From assembly GCA_002737365.1 (NCBI GenBank), contig NSIL01000020.1:1-47953 (forward strand): a stretch of 47,953 nt of DNA, in the 5' to 3' direction. Positions 37,345 to 45,184 of the stretch are shown here, in pieces (the first letter of the stretch is position 1; every line of letters starts with the position of its first letter). The notes below the pieces were generated by a model. That model saw only the letters and a list, made by a program, of their open reading frames with translations. It was not told where the DNA came from and ran no database searches. Source of the stretch: Acidobacterium sp. (lineage in GTDB: Bacteria; Acidobacteriota; Vicinamibacteria; Vicinamibacterales; UBA2999). Position numbers and translations under genes: made by a program.

Positions 37345-39147
37345 TTACTGACCGGCCCAGGCCGCCAGTCGGGTCTTCTGCTCGGCCGTGGCGGTGGGCG
37401 ACACTTCAAGCCGCCACGCGCGGCCAGGTTCGGTCCCGAGCATCACGTCGATCTTCGTCAGCTTGTCCCGGCGGGCCACGAGCACCGCGATCTGGTCGCC
37501 CGGCTTATATTGATCGAGTCGCGCCGCCAGGCCATCGGCCCGCACGCGCACATCATCGATCGCCAGGATCTCATCGTCCACGTTGAGGCCCGCCTCGATG
37601 GCCGGCGTGCCGCGACGGACCGACGTGATCACCAAACGACCGCCATCGTTGCGCGTGCCGCTGCCGATGAAGGCGCGGGCACCGCGCGGATCAGTGGGAC
37701 GGAACCGCAGGCCGAAGTAGTCGAGCGCCTCGGTGTAGTCCAGTTCGTCGGTCGACTCGGCCGCCTTGCCAAACCAGCCCTTGAGATCCGTACCGGCAGC
37801 CTCGCTCATGACGTCGTAAAACTGCGTCGGCGTGTAACCCTTGTCGCCGGAGTAGCGCTGCATGGCCCACTGCATGCCGGTGTCGAGCGTGCGCGCCTCG
37901 TTGCTCGACTTGCGGATCTTGGCGTCGAGCAGGAACGCAATCACCGCCCCCTTGGGGTAGTAGTTGATGCTGGTGTTGGCCGTGTTCTCGTCGGGACGGT
38001 ACTGCTTGATCCAGGTGTCGTACGACGACATGTTCACGGGCGTCACCAGCCGGCCTGGCGTGGTCTGCACCGCCTCGATTTGGTTCGACAGGCCGTCCAG
38101 GAACTCTTCGCGGGTCGCAATGCCGGCGCGCCGAGGCAGCACGTCGCCGTAGTAGTCAGTAAAGCCCTCGGCCACCCACAGCATCTTCACGTAGTTCTCA
38201 TTCTCGTAGTCGAAGGGGCCGAGTTCCACGGGACGCAACCGCTTAACGTTCCAGTTGTGGAAATACTCGTGGGCAATCAAGCCGAGCCATCCCATGTAGG
38301 AGCGGTGCGTGCGGGTGGTGAAGCGGCCCGACATGCCGAGGAAGCTGTTTTTGTGTTCAAGACCGCCACCGGATTCGGTGACCATGTTTAGAAAGTAGTA
38401 GTGCGGATACGGCAGCGGGCCCATCACGTTGCGGCCGGCCTCGACGATCTTCTTCACATCGGCAGCAGCGCGGTCGGCATCAAACAACGACGGGTCGCCT
38501 TCGAGCACCAGCGCGTGCTTCTTGCCGTCGACCGTGAACTCGCGCACGACCGGGTTGCCGATGATGATGGGGCTGTCGACGAGCGTGTCGAAGTCGTCCG
38601 CACGAAAGGTGGTGGCGGTGCCGGCCACCGGCATCAGCGGCGTCTGCACACCCTTCCAGGCCGCAGGCAGTTCCACCTTCACTTCGTGCGGCCGCTTGCC
38701 GCCATCGGGCAGCGTCACGAACGTCGGTGCGCCGTTCAGCATAGCGAAACCGGCCTCGACCCAGTTGTTGCGGACGGTCAGCTCGCGGCTGTAGACCCGG
38801 TAACGGAACATGACCGTGCGCGCCCCGCCAGTGGTGATCCGCCAGCGGTTCTTGCGCGACTTCTCCACCGCCAGCGCGGTCGTGCCATTGCTGGCGGTCA
38901 CGGCCTCGACGTTTCGCTCGTACTCGCGAATCAGGTACGACCCTGGCGTCCACGTCGCCATGTAGACCTCGACGTCGGGGCGGCCAGCCGTCGGGATACT
39001 CGCCTCCACTTCGACGTAGTGGGTCTGAGGCGCCGGAAAGCGCAACGTGTAGCGAATCGGCTCCACCGCCTGGGCGCTCAGCGGGTGCGAACTTGAGACA
39101 GTGAGCGCAAGCGCGCACAAAACGGCAGCAAGATTGGAACGGCTCAT
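37345..39147 (-). CDS. Secreted M61 family aminopeptidase with PDZ domain (first copy)
   Basis: A 600-residue exported metallopeptidase. The ATG at 39147 is chosen (MSRSNLAAVLCALALTVSSS signal peptide); an upstream in-frame GTG adds nothing. The zinc motif is HEYFHNWN (His293, Glu294, His297) with the third ligand Glu327 in WVAEGFTDYY. The N-terminal half is the M61 beta domain. A PDZ domain occupies about 490-565 (GLNVDDEILAIDDVRVRADG). M61 enzymes are glycyl- or broad aminopeptidases. TAGAAT lies 10 nt upstream of the ATG. The gene is divergent from the cox operon with 67 bp between start codons. Confidence 0.93.
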   Translation of the reverse strand: MSRSNLAAVLCALALTVSSSHPLSAQAVEPIRYTLRFPAPQTHYVEVEASIPTAGRPDVEVYMATWTPGSYLIREYERNVEAVTASNGTTALAVEKSRKNRWRITTGGARTVMFRYRVYSRELTVRNNWVEAGFAMLNGAPTFVTLPDGGKRPHEVKVELPAAWKGVQTPLMPVAGTATTFRADDFDTLVDSPIIIGNPVVREFTVDGKKHALVLEGDPSLFDADRAAADVKKIVEAGRNVMGPLPYPHYYFLNMVTESGGGLEHKNSFLGMSGRFTTRTHRSYMGWLGLIAHEYFHNWNVKRLRPVELGPFDYENENYVKMLWVAEGFTDYYGDVLPRRAGIATREEFLDGLSNQIEAVQTTPGRLVTPVNMSSYDTWIKQYRPDENTANTSINYYPKGAVIAFLLDAKIRKSSNEARTLDTGMQWAMQRYSGDKGYTPTQFYDVMSEAAGTDLKGWFGKAAESTDELDYTEALDYFGLRFRPTDPRGARAFIGSGTRNDGGRLVITSVRRGTPAIEAGLNVDDEILAIDDVRVRADGLAARLDQYKPGDQIAVLVARRDKLTKIDVMLGTEPGRAWRLEVSPTATAEQKTRLAAWAGQ

Positions 39148-39157
39148 GGTGGTTGTT

Positions 39158-39163
39158 ATTCTA
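39158..39163 (-). promoter_or_regulatory. Putative -10 hexamer TAGAAT for the first M61 gene
   Basis: TAGAAT (5 of 6 consensus positions) lies 10 nt before the ATG at 39147; the leader would be about 3 nt. Confidence 0.4.
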
Positions 39164-39202
39164 CCCACCTTCGCTAAGGCTACGGCGGGCAGGGCGAGCC
39201 TG

Positions 39203-39214: not shown

Positions 39215-41338
39215 GTGCGCTGGACCGATCACAAGACGGTGGGGCTGCAGTATGGCCTGACCGCCCTTTTCTTTCTCCTGGTCGGGTTCCTCCTGATGAT
39301 CCTGATGCGGTGGCAACTGGCCTGGCCCGGCCAGCCGCTGCCGGCGTGGCTGGTGCCGATGCTGGGCGAGGCCAACGCGCCCGGCGGCATCATGCTGCCC
39401 GAGTTCTATAACCAGCTGGTCGCTATGCACGGCTCGGTGATGGTCTTCCTGGCGGTGGTGCCGCTGGCCGCCAGCGCGTTCGGCACCTACCTCGTCCCGC
39501 TGCAGATCGGCGCCAACGGCGTCGCGTTCCCGCGGGTGAGTGCGCTCAGCTACTGGCTGTATCTCGCCGGGGGCCTCGTCATGCTCGCGAGCTTCTTCGT
39601 CGAGGGCGGCGCGCCGAATTCAGGCTGGACGTCGTACGTGCCGCTGGCGGTCATTGCCTCGGCAGGACAGAACTTCTGGCTCGTCGGCATCTTCCTGATC
39701 GGGTTGTCATCCACGCTCGGCGCCATCACCATGCTGGCCACCATCGTCCAGGGCCGCGCGCCCGGCATGACGTGGATGAAGCTACCGTTCTTCGTCTGGT
39801 CGCAGCTGGTCACGGCGCTGCTGTTGTTGCTGGCGTTCCCCGCTCTTCAGGCGGCGGCAATCTTCCAGTTGATGGACCGCGTCGCCGGCACCAGCTTCTT
39901 CCTGCCAACCGGCCTCGTGATTGGCGGTGCACCGCTGCTCGGACCGACCGGCGGCGGCAACCCGCTGCTGTGGCAGCATCTGTTCTGGTTCCTCGCGCAT
40001 CCCGAGGTCTACGTCCTGATCCTCCCCGCCATGGGCATTGTCGCCGAGGTGATCACCACCAACGCGCGGCGGCCGCTGTGGGGCTACGGGCTGATGGTCG
40101 GCGCAGTGCTGTTCATGGGCGGCATGTCGATGGTGGTGTGGGCGCATCACATGTTCCTGAGCGGCATGGGCACGACGCTCAGCCTGTTCTTCCAGGTGAC
40201 GACGATGATCATCTCGATTCCGTCGGTGATCTTGATCTCGTCGCTGGTGATGTCGCTATGGGGCGGATCGATTCGCTTCACCACGCCGATGCTGTTCGCG
40301 CTGGCGTTCCTGCCGATGTTTGGCATCGGCGGCCTGACCGGGCTGCCACTCGGTCTCGCGGCCAGCGATGTCTCGTTGCACGACACCTACTATGTCGTCG
40401 CGCACTTCCACTACCTGGTGGCGCCGGGCACGATGTTCGCGCTGTTCGCCGGCATCTACCACTGGTTCCCGCGCATCACCGGCCGGATGCTCGACGAGCG
40501 GCTCGGCAAGGTGCATTTCTGGGGATCGTTCATCTGCATGAACCTGATCTTCATGCCGATGTTCGTGGTCGGACTGATGGGCGTGAACCGCCGCCTGTAT
40601 GACGCCGGTGCGAGCTACGCACTGGCTCAGCCGACGCTGATGTGGCAGACGCACATGACGTATGCCGCCGTCCTGCTCGGCGTGTTCCAACTGCCTTTCC
40701 TTTGGAATCTGTGGTCAAGCAGCCGCAAGCCGGATCAGTGCGTCGACAACCCATGGCAAGCAAGCACCCGTGAGTGGCAACTGCCATTGGCGGCTGTGAG
40801 CAGAGCGGAATCTGCGGCGGTGATTAGACCCGACACCGGCACATCGGCGTCGGCGCTGGGAACCTGGCTGCTGCTCGCCTCGCTGACGATGTTCTTTGGG
40901 TCGCTGTTTTCGGCCTACGTCATGCTCCGCGCCGGATCGCTCGAATGGCCGGGACCGCTCGCCCAGTTCCCGTGGCTCGAGACGGCGCTGCTGCTCGGCG
41001 CCGCCGCGGTGTTCAGCGAAGCGCGCATCCGCCTGATCAGTTCACATGCGCTCGGGCTCGCCTTTGTCGCCATCAGGCTGATGAACGACGCGCTCATGAT
41101 TCGCCAGGGCCTGGCGCCCTCGGCCAGCGTGCAGTTGGCGTGCTGGTACACCCTGGGCGCCGTGCACACCACCTTGGTGTTTGGCGCAGCCGTATTCTCT
41201 GGTTGGCTGGCGGGTCCATCGTTCGCAATGAAAGCCAGTCAGCGCGAACGCTGGCTGGCGCGCATCGAGACGACGCGGCAATACTGGATCTTCGTGGACA
41301 TCGTGTGGCTCGCGCTGGTGGGCGCGTTCTTCATATGA
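39215..41338 (+). CDS. Cytochrome c oxidase subunit I-III fusion
   Basis: A 707-residue integral membrane protein of the terminal oxidase. Residues about 1-500 are subunit I: low-spin heme ligand His72 (MHGSVM), CuB ligands His262 (AHPEVY), His311 and His312, crosslinked Tyr266, high-spin heme ligand His397 and His399 (AHFHYLV). Residues about 545-707 are a shortened subunit III with about five helices. Glu264 in HPEVY is kept, but the D-channel Asp is Gly102 (LQIGANGVAFPR) and the K-channel Lys is Leu340 (IPSVILISS), with Ser337 at the Thr position. The GTG start has TAGAAT 6 nt upstream. The stop overlaps the next ATG. Confidence 0.94.
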   Translation: MRWTDHKTVGLQYGLTALFFLLVGFLLMILMRWQLAWPGQPLPAWLVPMLGEANAPGGIMLPEFYNQLVAMHGSVMVFLAVVPLAASAFGTYLVPLQIGANGVAFPRVSALSYWLYLAGGLVMLASFFVEGGAPNSGWTSYVPLAVIASAGQNFWLVGIFLIGLSSTLGAITMLATIVQGRAPGMTWMKLPFFVWSQLVTALLLLLAFPALQAAAIFQLMDRVAGTSFFLPTGLVIGGAPLLGPTGGGNPLLWQHLFWFLAHPEVYVLILPAMGIVAEVITTNARRPLWGYGLMVGAVLFMGGMSMVVWAHHMFLSGMGTTLSLFFQVTTMIISIPSVILISSLVMSLWGGSIRFTTPMLFALAFLPMFGIGGLTGLPLGLAASDVSLHDTYYVVAHFHYLVAPGTMFALFAGIYHWFPRITGRMLDERLGKVHFWGSFICMNLIFMPMFVVGLMGVNRRLYDAGASYALAQPTLMWQTHMTYAAVLLGVFQLPFLWNLWSSSRKPDQCVDNPWQASTREWQLPLAAVSRAESAAVIRPDTGTSASALGTWLLLASLTMFFGSLFSAYVMLRAGSLEWPGPLAQFPWLETALLLGAAAVFSEARIRLISSHALGLAFVAIRLMNDALMIRQGLAPSASVQLACWYTLGAVHTTLVFGAAVFSGWLAGPSFAMKASQRERWLARIETTRQYWIFVDIVWLALVGAFFI

Positions 41339-41490
41339 GCTGCTCCATCTGCGGACCTTCTGAAAGCGCGGCCATTGCCGCCGGCATTCGCGCCGGTGTC
41401 GGCACACTGGTCATCGTCACGGCGATCGTCGTGCTGGGGATCGCGCGCTTGGCGTGGCGCCTGTGGGTGCTCAGGAATCGCAACGCATGA
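41335..41490 (+). CDS. 51-residue membrane protein with N-terminal CxxC inside the cox operon
   Basis: MSCSICGPSESAAIAAGIRA is followed by one hydrophobic helix (GVGTLVIVTAIVVLGIARLA) and a basic end WRLWVLRNRNA. It overlaps the coxAC stop (ATGA) and its own stop overlaps the coxB start (ATGA), so it is a real link in the operon. The Cys3-x-x-Cys6 pair near the membrane face could bind copper or be redox-active. Small subunit-IV-like proteins occur in oxidase operons, but I do not recognise this one. Confidence 0.75.
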   Translation: MSCSICGPSESAAIAAGIRAGVGTLVIVTAIVVLGIARLAWRLWVLRNRNA

Positions 41491-42227
41491 TCGAGCGCTG
41501 GCTGCCCGCGGCCGCCTCGGCCCACGCGTGCGCACTGGATGCCGTGCTGTTCGGCATCCACTGGCACATGCTGCTGATCTTCACCGCGTGGCTGGCGCTG
41601 TTGGTCGTGATCCTGATCAAATTCCGTCAGGGCGCGAACCCGGAGCCGCGACCGACCGAAGCAAGACGCTTATGGCCCGCCATCGCGATCGGCTGTGTGG
41701 TCATCGGCGACGCCGTCATTCTCACGACGCTAGCCTTGCCGGCCTGGTCGGCCCGAATCGCGCCGCCACCGGCCAATGTGACGCCAATCGAAGTACGCGT
41801 CACCGGCGAGCAGTTCGCCTGGAACATCCACTACCCGGGACCAGACCGAGTGTTCGGACGCATCGACAACTCGTTGATCAGCGCGTCAAACCCCGTGGGG
41901 ATCGACCGTGACGACGCGGCCGCCAGGGACGACATCGGACTGCTGAACATCCTCACGCTGCCCGTCGGGCGGACGATCGTGATTCAACTGGCCAGCCGCG
42001 ATGTCGTCCACAGCTTTACCCTCCACGAGATGCGCGTGAAGCAGGACGCCATGCCAGGCATGACCACGCGGACGTGGTTTACGCCGACCAGGACCGGGGA
42101 TTGGGAGATTGCGTGTTCACAGTTATGTGGGCTGGGGCACTACCGAATGCGCGGTGAGCTTCACGTGGTGACCGCGGCCGGCTGGGACCAGTGGATGAAG
42201 GACGAGCAAGTGCGATTAACTCGATGA
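41487..42227 (+). CDS. coxB: Cytochrome c oxidase subunit II
   Basis: A 246-residue subunit that takes electrons from the donor at its CuA centre. Two N-terminal membrane helices (about 20-45 and 62-85) precede a cupredoxin domain. CuA ligands are all present: His175 (RDVVHSFTLHEM), Cys210, Cys214, His218 and Met221 (CSQLCGLGHYRM). Gln212 replaces the usual Glu, whose backbone carbonyl binds copper, so the site should still form. There is no fused cytochrome c domain, unlike caa3 types. ATGA overlaps join it to the 51-residue protein and to the S66 gene. Confidence 0.94.
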   Translation: MIERWLPAAASAHACALDAVLFGIHWHMLLIFTAWLALLVVILIKFRQGANPEPRPTEARRLWPAIAIGCVVIGDAVILTTLALPAWSARIAPPPANVTPIEVRVTGEQFAWNIHYPGPDRVFGRIDNSLISASNPVGIDRDDAAARDDIGLLNILTLPVGRTIVIQLASRDVVHSFTLHEMRVKQDAMPGMTTRTWFTPTRTGDWEIACSQLCGLGHYRMRGELHVVTAAGWDQWMKDEQVRLTR

Positions 42228-43290: not shown

Positions 43291-45171
43291 CTACCGTCGT
43301 TGCGAGTTGAGCCAGGACTCCCTGAACTTCCGCTGGTCGTCGGTGAGTGTGCCGCCGGTTTTTTCGACCGGCACGATCTCAATTCGCGGGTCCTCAACCA
43401 GCGTGATGGTGCCGTTCACCACTTCGCCGCTGCGACGGATGAACCGCAGCGGCACGGCCGCGCCCGGCTTCTGCTTCGAGAGAGCCGCTTCAAACGCCGC
43501 CATTGACGTCAGGTCGACGCCGCCGAGACTCGCCAGCTGATCGTCTTGCGCGACGCCCGCCTGGTAGAGCGGCGATTCCCACGGCACGAGGCCCGACACT
43601 CGCAAGGCACTGCCGCCACCCTGCAACTGCACCTGGCCGGCGAACGCCTTGCCCGCGGCGCGCTTGCGCAACACCATACCGGCCCTACCCAGCAGGTGCG
43701 TGTAGTCCACCAGCTCGCGGCCCTCGACGTACTTGGCGAAGAAGTCGTTGGCGTAGCCGCGATCACCGGCCACCTTGGCCAGCGACTCCTTCAGCCCGTC
43801 GATGGTGTAGGGCGTGCTCACCTTGCCAGGGGTCTTCTGTCCCGGCCGGCCAAACTGGGTCCACAGTGCCTTCATGAACTGATCGCCGGTGACTTGCGCG
43901 TTCGACCGATCACGCAGCGACAGGTCGAGTCCCAGCCCGATCACCGAACCGTAGGTGTAGTACGAGATGAAGAGGTTCGGAAAGGCGGTGCGATCGATCG
44001 CCGCGGCCGCATCCACGAACGGTGCCATCCGGCTCATGTCCACGGCGCTGCGGAACTGGCGGCCGGGCCCGAGCGTGACAGCGTTGATGGAGCCCGCCAG
44101 TTCGCCCAGCAGCCCATCGAGCGGCAGCAGGCCGGCGCGATACAGGATCAGGCTGTCGAAGTAGCTCGTGAAGCCCTCGCCCAGCCACAGGTCGTCGCTC
44201 ATATCGGCCTGCTCGAAGTCGAAGGGCTCGACGCCCGCCGAGCGCAGGCGCTCCATGTTCCAGGCGTGGAAGAACTCGTGCGAGACGGTGCCGAGAATGC
44301 CCTGGCGCTGGCCGGGGTTGCGGAGCGCACCGGGGCTGGTCAACGACGTGCTGTTGCGATGCTCCATGCCATCGCCGCTGGCCCACGGCAGGTAGGTGCT
44401 GAGGAACGTGTAGGTGTTGGTTTCAAACTGCGGCAACTCGCCAAAGATGGGAATGGTCTCGCGGACGATGCGCTCGACGTCCCTGGCAAAGGCGTCGGCT
44501 TCAGCCTCGGTGCCGTCATGCGTCAGGGCGATGCGGAAGGTTGGCGGCGGCCCCGTCCGCTTCTGACCATCGTCGACCGTGAACGCGCGCAGCGTGAACG
44601 CGCTGAAATCGGTGGGGCTGTCCATCAGGTAGTGGATGTTCGGCGCCGTGAAAACGAGCGGATCCGGCGTCGGGAACAACTGGGTCGCGACTTTCCAGGT
44701 CTTGCCTGACGGCTGCACGAACGTCACCCTGGCCGGCCGCTCGAACCAGCCGCGCGCGAACATCAGCGCTGCGGGGATGTTGATGTGCGCGTGCATCGAG
44801 TCGATGCCGAGGTAGGTGCCGTCGGTGCGGTCACCGAAGACCTTATAGGTCACGACGACGGTGCCGTCGTGAGTGGCGAAGTCCCACTGGTGAGGATCCG
44901 GCCTGGTCGCCGTGAGCGGCTGGCCCTTGCTGTTCACCGCCGTGACGTCGAACACGTTCTTGGCGAACTCGTGGAGCGCATAGCGCCCAGGAGATGTCCG
45001 CGCCATCCGCAACTGCAGCACGCCCACAGGCACGGCGGCGAATTTGGCTTCAACCTGCATCCACCGGTGTTCGGGGGACGGGAACGAGAACTTGTACTCC
45101 ACCGGGGCCTGCGCCCACGCGGTGCTGGCCACCAGCACCAAAATGAAAACGGCGACGAAACGTTTGACCAT
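43291..45171 (-). CDS. Secreted M61 family aminopeptidase with PDZ domain (second copy)
   Basis: A 626-residue exported metallopeptidase starting at ATG 45171 (signal peptide MVKRFVAVFILVLVASTAWA). The zinc motif is HEFFHAWN (His298, Glu299, His302), and the third ligand is Glu332 in LWLGEGFTSYF. EHRNSTSLTSPG is the substrate-region block. A PDZ domain near residues 505-585 (GVAQDDQLASLGGVDLTSMA) follows. It is a diverged paralogue of the enzyme at 37345 with the same architecture. TATGCT lies 7 nt upstream of the ATG, and the divergent M20 gene starts 18 bp away. Confidence 0.93.
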   Translation of the reverse strand: MVKRFVAVFILVLVASTAWAQAPVEYKFSFPSPEHRWMQVEAKFAAVPVGVLQLRMARTSPGRYALHEFAKNVFDVTAVNSKGQPLTATRPDPHQWDFATHDGTVVVTYKVFGDRTDGTYLGIDSMHAHINIPAALMFARGWFERPARVTFVQPSGKTWKVATQLFPTPDPLVFTAPNIHYLMDSPTDFSAFTLRAFTVDDGQKRTGPPPTFRIALTHDGTEAEADAFARDVERIVRETIPIFGELPQFETNTYTFLSTYLPWASGDGMEHRNSTSLTSPGALRNPGQRQGILGTVSHEFFHAWNMERLRSAGVEPFDFEQADMSDDLWLGEGFTSYFDSLILYRAGLLPLDGLLGELAGSINAVTLGPGRQFRSAVDMSRMAPFVDAAAAIDRTAFPNLFISYYTYGSVIGLGLDLSLRDRSNAQVTGDQFMKALWTQFGRPGQKTPGKVSTPYTIDGLKESLAKVAGDRGYANDFFAKYVEGRELVDYTHLLGRAGMVLRKRAAGKAFAGQVQLQGGGSALRVSGLVPWESPLYQAGVAQDDQLASLGGVDLTSMAAFEAALSKQKPGAAVPLRFIRRSGEVVNGTITLVEDPRIEIVPVEKTGGTLTDDQRKFRESWLNSQRR

Positions 45172-45177
45172 TCCGGC

Positions 45178-45184
45178 TAGCATA
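45178..45184. promoter_or_regulatory. Overlapping divergent -10 hexamers for the second M61 gene and the M20 gene
   Basis: TAGCAT (45178-45183, plus) is 6 nt before the ATG at 45190, and TATGCT (45184-45179, minus) is 7 nt before the ATG at 45171. The two hexamers share five bases within an 18-bp spacer, so the two promoters should compete or fire from one open complex. Confidence 0.45.

Follow-up and report, generated by a model that had tools for sequence, protein, structure and literature searches.

How does a cytochrome c oxidase with the intact metal site of the A family take up its protons, and can it still pump them, when the canonical residues of both proton channels are missing? This question is raised by a CoxA-CoxC fusion gene on a 47,953-nucleotide stretch of acidobacterial DNA (the window). 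A preliminary description had aligned D124 and N131 of the D-channel (Paracoccus numbering) with G102 and S109 of the fusion protein, and K354 and T351 of the K-channel with L340 and S337, and had reported E264, Y266 and all metal ligands as intact. Each of these assignments was reproduced when the protein was aligned to Paracoccus CoxI together with relatives.

The oxidase locus and its family

The oxidase genes and the residues discussed below are located as follows, with residue equivalences taken from the alignment.

39215..41338, + strand: CoxA-CoxC fusion (subunits I and III of an A-family cytochrome c oxidase), 707 aa, GTG start
39485..39487, + strand: codon of T91, Paracoccus N113 (D-channel), lost
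39518..39520, + strand: codon of G102, Paracoccus D124 (D-channel entry), lost
39539..39541, + strand: codon of S109, Paracoccus N131, lost
39728..39730, + strand: codon of T172, Paracoccus N199 (D-channel), lost
40004..40012, + strand: codons of E264, V265 and Y266, Paracoccus E278, V279 and Y280 (HPEVY), kept
40232..40234, + strand: codon of L340, Paracoccus K354 (K-channel), lost
40883..40885, + strand: codon of L557, position of the conserved CoxIII carboxylate, lost
41335..41490, + strand: 51-aa ORF (MSCSICG...) with one hydrophobic stretch, ATGA overlap with both neighbours
41487..42227, + strand: CoxB (subunit II), intact CuA motif H175, C210, C214, H218, M221
41709..41711, + strand: CoxB D75, carboxylate within transmembrane helix 2 (TM2; helix 62-91 of the AF2 model), proposed new K-side proton relay

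Residues 9-480 of the fusion protein matched COX1 (PF00115; 446.5 bits) and residues 545-704 matched CoxIII models with scores under their cut-offs; the conserved CoxIII carboxylate, at L557 of the window, is presumably the counterpart of bovine E90. The 51-aa ORF had no match in Pfam or NCBIfam. It starts with a CxxC and is possibly an unnamed oxidase subunit, and a loose-pattern scan found small ORFs resembling it at 10 of 14 related loci. Judged by eye, the operon is flanked by M61-type peptidase-like genes with a PDZ domain (37345-39168 and 43291-45183, both on the - strand), and similar peptidase-like genes lie near the oxidase operon in some relatives too.

The fusion protein carries the A-family ligand set, namely the six His of the hemes and CuB and the helix VI Tyr in HPEVY, and its sequence was nearest to that family (E 1.2e-107 to aa3 chain 7rh6_R versus 1e-06 to ba3 chain 1ehk_A). 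Structure prediction, suggested as a check in the preliminary description, returned an A-family fold: the AF2 model of CoxA (mean pLDDT 71.9, pTM 0.74, CoxIII part of low confidence) aligned with R. sphaeroides subunit I (3omi_C) at Z 47.3 and rmsd 2.5 over 506 residues. In the model, G102 falls within the loop that joins helices 62-97 and 106-126 and L340 within helix 320-347; both placements are those to be expected of D124 and K354. The list of fold matches also included eukaryotic oxidases from Euglena, Tetrahymena and Perkinsus. Since CoxB keeps the CuA ligands (His, CxxxC, His and Met), the enzyme was assigned as a cytochrome c oxidase. Thermus caa3 (2yev; chain 2yev_A, Z 43.8) and other CoxI-III fusions likewise hold subunits I and III in one chain. 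Both proton channels are present in Thermus caa3, whereas the window fusion has neither.

According to the available text of PMC3084760, the D-channel of type A1 consists of Asp124, Asn199, Asn113, Asn131, Tyr35, Ser134, Ser193 and Glu278, and the K-channel of Lys354, Thr351, Ser291 and Tyr280. The window CoxA departs from the former by D124G, N113T, N131S and N199T, keeping Y35, S134, S193 and E278, and from the latter by K354L, S291A and T351S, keeping Y280. The changes of N113 to T91, N199 to T172 and S291 to A277 add to those described earlier. T351S probably means little, because Ser occupies this position in many K354-bearing oxidases, including the other oxidase of the window genome. 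Also kept were H94, H276, H325, H326, H411, H413, R473, R474 and the equivalent of T203. Sequencing error was excluded as the source of the channel changes, since residue 124 was G, A, A and Q, and residue 354 was L, in the four nearest relatives, all of them with open frames.

Two other identities were rejected. In its accessible part, PMC3084760 ascribes to type B an alternative K-channel, in which Thr, Ser and Tyr occupy the K-channel positions; the window enzyme has Leu, Ser and Ala there, and its similarity to ba3 is weak. The same text characterizes nitric oxide reductases by the motif H-X-Arom-X-E and no cross-linking Tyr, whereas the window enzyme has HPEVY with its Tyr and lacks that motif. 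The enzyme therefore resembles A1-type aa3 oxidases (Paracoccus, Rhodobacter, mitochondria) in fold, metal ligands, HPEVY with E278 and Y280, and a CuA-bearing subunit II, but differs from them by lacking D124, N131, N113, N199, K354, S291, the CoxB entry Glu and the CoxIII carboxylate, and by having an acid in CoxB TM2.

Distribution of the channel losses

Loci for comparison were picked by likeness to the window protein, not randomly. Within the phylum, 107 of 396 genomes matched at E <= 1e-130, a set that takes in K354-bearing enzymes and K-less groups outside the clade described next. A contig scan contributed the best 80 of 586 matches, and 17 records were used out of 60 listed among the 887 plasmid records with a match. 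In a 120-row CoxA tree, obtained by a quick search with the nine channel columns excluded, the 66 rows with Ile, Val or Leu at 354 formed one clade (SH-aLRT 100). Besides genomes of the window's phylum, this K-less clade includes records under the titles Marinimicrobia, Planctomycetota, Omnitrophota, Verrucomicrobia, Deltaproteobacteria and Hydrogenedentota, and most of its members kept D124, N131, N113 and N199.

Around the window, at least 12 of the 43 family genomes (G000, G004, G005, G006, G008, G028, G035, G036, G426, G427, G428 and G430) had a CoxA with a non-acidic residue at 124 (hereafter D-less). D-less enzymes outside the family were those of a Hydrogenedentota MAG (L104), located beside the D124 row L081 (SH-aLRT 96), and of a Thermoanaerobaculia MAG (L120) on a long branch of unsure placement. 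Near relatives had E124 with the three Asn intact (L007, L037), D124 (L010), or D124 with the three Asn lost (L042). Forks within the D-less sub-clade were partly unsupported, and the losses of D124 there were therefore left uncounted. The D-less enzymes L028, L029 and L104 additionally had Asn at Paracoccus D399. The absence of both channels put forward in the preliminary description thus stands, but not as one event, as K354 loss marks a multi-phylum clade and D-channel loss is local. The tree indicates two nested events, in which K354 was lost first and the D-channel residues later, in a sub-clade and in two other MAGs.

CoxA-CoxC fusion does not track channel loss and was rejected as a cause, since L013 is fused with D124 present and L011 and L012 are D-less and unfused.

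The conserved CoxIII carboxylate was replaced by L, C, I or V in 10 of the 11 D-less enzymes read (the window, L004, L006, L008, L009, L011, L012, L242, L243 and L244) and kept in L104. The corresponding residue was L in L042, and E in L007 and L037 (E124) and in L010 (D124); Glu was also kept in the Q354 enzymes L053 and L055, which have N and T at 124. Among rows labelled D124, the position held E or D in 165, another residue in six (L042, L152, L170, L179, L180 and L196) and a gap in two, with same-gene loci repeated, rows of no readable state wrongly labelled and only the longest CoxIII-like match per locus counted, so that some loci may hold a second CoxIII gene. We read the joint loss of the D-channel and the CoxIII carboxylate as abandonment of the D-side machinery.

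In a column scan for polar gains, 11 D-less rows, of which one repeats the window sequence, were compared with 77 K-less D124 rows. No new conserved acid was found near the old D-channel entry of the D-less rows, and window His480 was present in 8 of the 11. Two hydroxyls near L340, S334 (A348S) and S342 (F356S), proved to be common to the K-less clade: position 348 was Ser in 75 and position 356 Thr or Ser in 74 of the 77 K-less D124 rows, and both hydroxyls occurred in all 11 D-less rows.

The D-channel might instead survive in altered form, its small or hydroxyl residues (G or A at 124; S or T at 113, 131 and 199) lining a water pore that feeds E278 from another surface collector, for example the N-terminal D5/H6. 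The window keeps the equivalents of Y35, S134, S193, T203 and E278, and most substitutes are small or hydroxylated. E278 was retained in every D-less enzyme read, which would be unexplained if the D route were dead and which leaves a modified D route open. Activity of the R. sphaeroides D132A mutant is partly restored by external fatty acids, which we count for this reading as well. Nevertheless, residue 124 is variable among D-less enzymes (G, A, Q and R), the CoxIII carboxylate is mostly gone and the column scan revealed no conserved entry acid, so that an altered D-channel is considered unlikely, though a serious contender.

A carboxylate in CoxB helix 2

Each CoxA was paired with the nearest CoxB on its strand, giving 186 scoreable pairs from 217 readable CoxA (30 without CoxB, one too short), with the duplicates L003 and L219 and the fragment or split rows L218, L037 and L162 dropped. 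The TM2 acid was scored as Glu or Asp 11-12 residues before the position of window CoxB Trp87 (W-11 or W-12). It was present in none of the 89 pairs with K354 and in 89 of the 97 without, and 178 of the 186 pairs fitted the rule of K354 or acid. The usual CoxB entry acid (W-22) occurred, in an earlier pair set, in 81 of 82 pairs with K354 and 1 of 89 without. When TM2 was chosen by hydropathy alone, the result was weaker than the alignment-based count, with an acid in 73 of 89 K354-lacking and 1 of 82 K354-bearing pairs. Apart from the Q354 enzymes, the acid was kept in all 13 enzymes with a non-acidic residue 124 and a readable CoxB. By hand count from the alignment, window D75 follows the position of R. 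sphaeroides Glu101 by about ten residues. The window CoxB has no counterpart of the further TM2 acid (W-19) seen in many K-less relatives, which speaks against the proposed route at its cytoplasmic start. The preliminary description had named equivalent protonatable residues in shifted positions as the finding that would overturn it; on the K side such a residue was found, the TM2 carboxylate of the 89 K-less pairs, and on the D side the column scan disclosed none.

In a 101-row tree, which holds the misread row L037 and no plasmid loci (and hence no plasmid exceptions), the K354 state changed six times and the acid state four times, each acid change together with K354. Among six independent pairs differing in K354, the acid went with K loss in four, ran opposite in none and did not differ in two; a sign test on the four changes was not significant (p = 0.125). 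The same pairing was shown by lineages among the K354-bearing relatives, namely L169, L152 with L200, and the group of L043, L045-L047, L172, L178, L179, L184 and L206. The acid stood at W-12 in the main clade (W-11 in its member L116) and in L152, L200 and L204, while the L043 group, the M354 group and L169 had it at W-11. Its position was not relied on as a mark of separate origin. With the K354-bearing A2 enzymes as outgroup, the changes are read as K losses accompanied by acid gains, although counts alone cannot separate gain from loss. The covariation of K354 and the TM2 acid may be called a strong pattern, not a proven one.

Eight K354-lacking pairs had no TM2 acid: L053, L055, L232, L233 and L239 (Q354), L236 (M354), L228 (A354, E278W) and L148 (V354, H276Q/H325Q). 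Loss of the lysine is hence possible without it. The Q354 and M354 exceptions had Glu at N199 in five of six cases (not L055) and a hydrophobic residue at N113 in most, perhaps a different solution. L232, L233, L236 and L239 are alphaproteobacterial plasmids with ORFs of 842-872 aa, probably CoxI-III fusions. Other plasmid CoxA had lost E278, with E278W beside A354 in Methylocystis (L228) and E278L in Natrinema (L235). The proteobacterial MAG CoxA at L148:5908-7665, in which the CuB ligands are changed (H276Q and H325Q) beside E124 and V354, is perhaps no longer an oxidase.

The acid could also mark some other trait of these lineages, such as assembly, a lipid or a partner subunit, and merely accompany the loss of K354. 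Only four changes on the tree and the eight exceptions speak for such hitchhiking, but the fit of 178 pairs and the recurrence of the pairing in L169, in L152 with L200 and in the L043 group make it improbable in our judgement.

Proposed working of the enzyme

It is established at the level of sequence that neither member of the canonical K pair, CoxA K354 and the entry Glu of CoxB, remains, that a TM2 carboxylate is present, and that the D-channel residues and the CoxIII carboxylate are lost. The K channel looks relocated rather than deleted. In its available text, PMC8239185 identifies the ionisable groups of the K-channel as Lys362 and, in subunit II, Glu101, and an excerpt of PMC12901375 reports that K319M essentially blocks heme a3 reduction. 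A lysine-less enzyme should therefore need another donor, for which the CoxB carboxylate is the candidate. We give an even chance to the reading of the window enzyme as an A-family cytochrome c oxidase with one rebuilt K-like input and with pumping lost or reduced. Fed by CuA, a normal heme-copper-tyrosine centre would still reduce oxygen to water. The active-site tyrosine would receive its protons by a rebuilt K-like route at the interface of CoxA helix VIII and CoxB TM2, with D75 as the putative relay in place of Lys354 and the helix VIII hydroxyls (348 and 356) perhaps aiding this route.

With no D-channel, the protons consumed in chemistry would all come by the K-like route. B- and C-family oxidases work in this way, and the accessible part of PMC8079940 describes a single K-like channel for them. 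The window enzyme nevertheless differs from these families in being A-family by sequence and fold, in having E278 and in lacking the B-type Thr and Tyr at the K-channel positions. The same part of PMC8079940 states that the D-channel carries all pumped protons, and the excerpt of PMC12901375 lists bovine N98S as decoupled and N98S/T/D as active but non-pumping. Pumping should thus be lost or reduced in an enzyme without a D-channel and with Ser at N131, equated here with bovine N98 through the offset between D91 and D124. PMC12901375, as far as available, argues that all families possess an H-pathway and that pumping runs through it; if this is right, loss of the D-channel need not end pumping. 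The earlier expectation of intact oxygen reduction, with protons entering elsewhere or pumping lost, held for the intact site without canonical channels, but it considered subunit I only and missed the CoxB acid.

Very improbable, in contrast, is a supply of the chemistry protons from the periplasmic side, which would make the enzyme non-electrogenic like cNOR, a reductase that in the available text of PMC3084760 is non-electrogenic and has no cytoplasmic channel in its structure: here the NOR motif is absent, and each of the 13 D-less enzymes whose CoxB could be read retains the TM2 acid.

The CoxA dN/dS between the window and the three nearest enzymes compared was 0.092 (L024), 0.125 (L026) and 0.143 (L023), and was 0.204, 0.256 and 0.281 for the more distant L035, L025 and L027, with L219 left out of the comparison; the CoxC part had dN of 0.20-0.25 and dS of 0.90-1.05. 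The window genome (3.05 Mb, 54 contigs) contained two COX1 matches in total, and a search of it for cytochrome bd found none. Its other oxidase is of the A2 type (YSHPAVY) with D124, N131 and K354, and the CoxB of that oxidase has a CSTCH heme c motif. All eight D-less genomes checked, out of the 12 in the family, possess such an A2 oxidase in which D124 and K354 are present (L001, L211-L217). The relative G005 carries, besides its open D-less copy, a second K-less CoxA with D124 that is split and contains a TAG (L218, G005:C168). That the window enzyme is a decaying duplicate, its channels lost as it stopped working, is barely credible: the split copy in G005 and the other oxidase in the window genome would suit it, but the low dN/dS to the nearest enzymes, the intact heme, CuB, tyrosine and CuA residues, and open D124-less CoxA in at least 12 family genomes do not. 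On the preferred reading of a single rebuilt K-like input, the enzyme would be a poorly coupled oxidase beside an ordinary two-channel one, and such a second oxidase would be affordable because those eight genomes also carry the A2 oxidase.

K-channel variants of A-family enzymes have been published by Degli Esposti and others in 2021 (PMC8239418), the available text of which weighs seven K losses as one of two scenarios. The window enzyme is likewise an A-family oxidase without the canonical K channel, but that text mentions neither an added absence of the D-channel residues nor a CoxB carboxylate accompanying the K loss, both of which are seen here. In the consulted part of PMC3084760, 4 oxidases out of 1216 did not have the channel residues of their type, and these were all B-like. 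In the open-licence literature searched, no account was found of an A-family oxidase without both channels or of the CoxB TM2 carboxylate exchange. We tentatively propose, at somewhat under even likelihood, that the A family repeatedly moved the ionisable group of the K-channel from Lys354 of subunit I to a buried carboxylate on subunit II helix 2, and that some lineages then dropped the D-channel and became single-channel enzymes, converging functionally on the B and C families.

The need for two channels and the indispensability of the D-channel for pumping have been debated largely from laboratory mutants. Here, the K-channel lysine has disappeared from natural enzymes under purifying selection, and from some of these the D-channel too, with the oxygen-reducing site complete. 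Their relatives provide a graded series for tests of coupling, from D124 through E124 to G, A or Q, and the exchange of a subunit I Lys for a subunit II Asp or Glu is a specific swap that can be tested.
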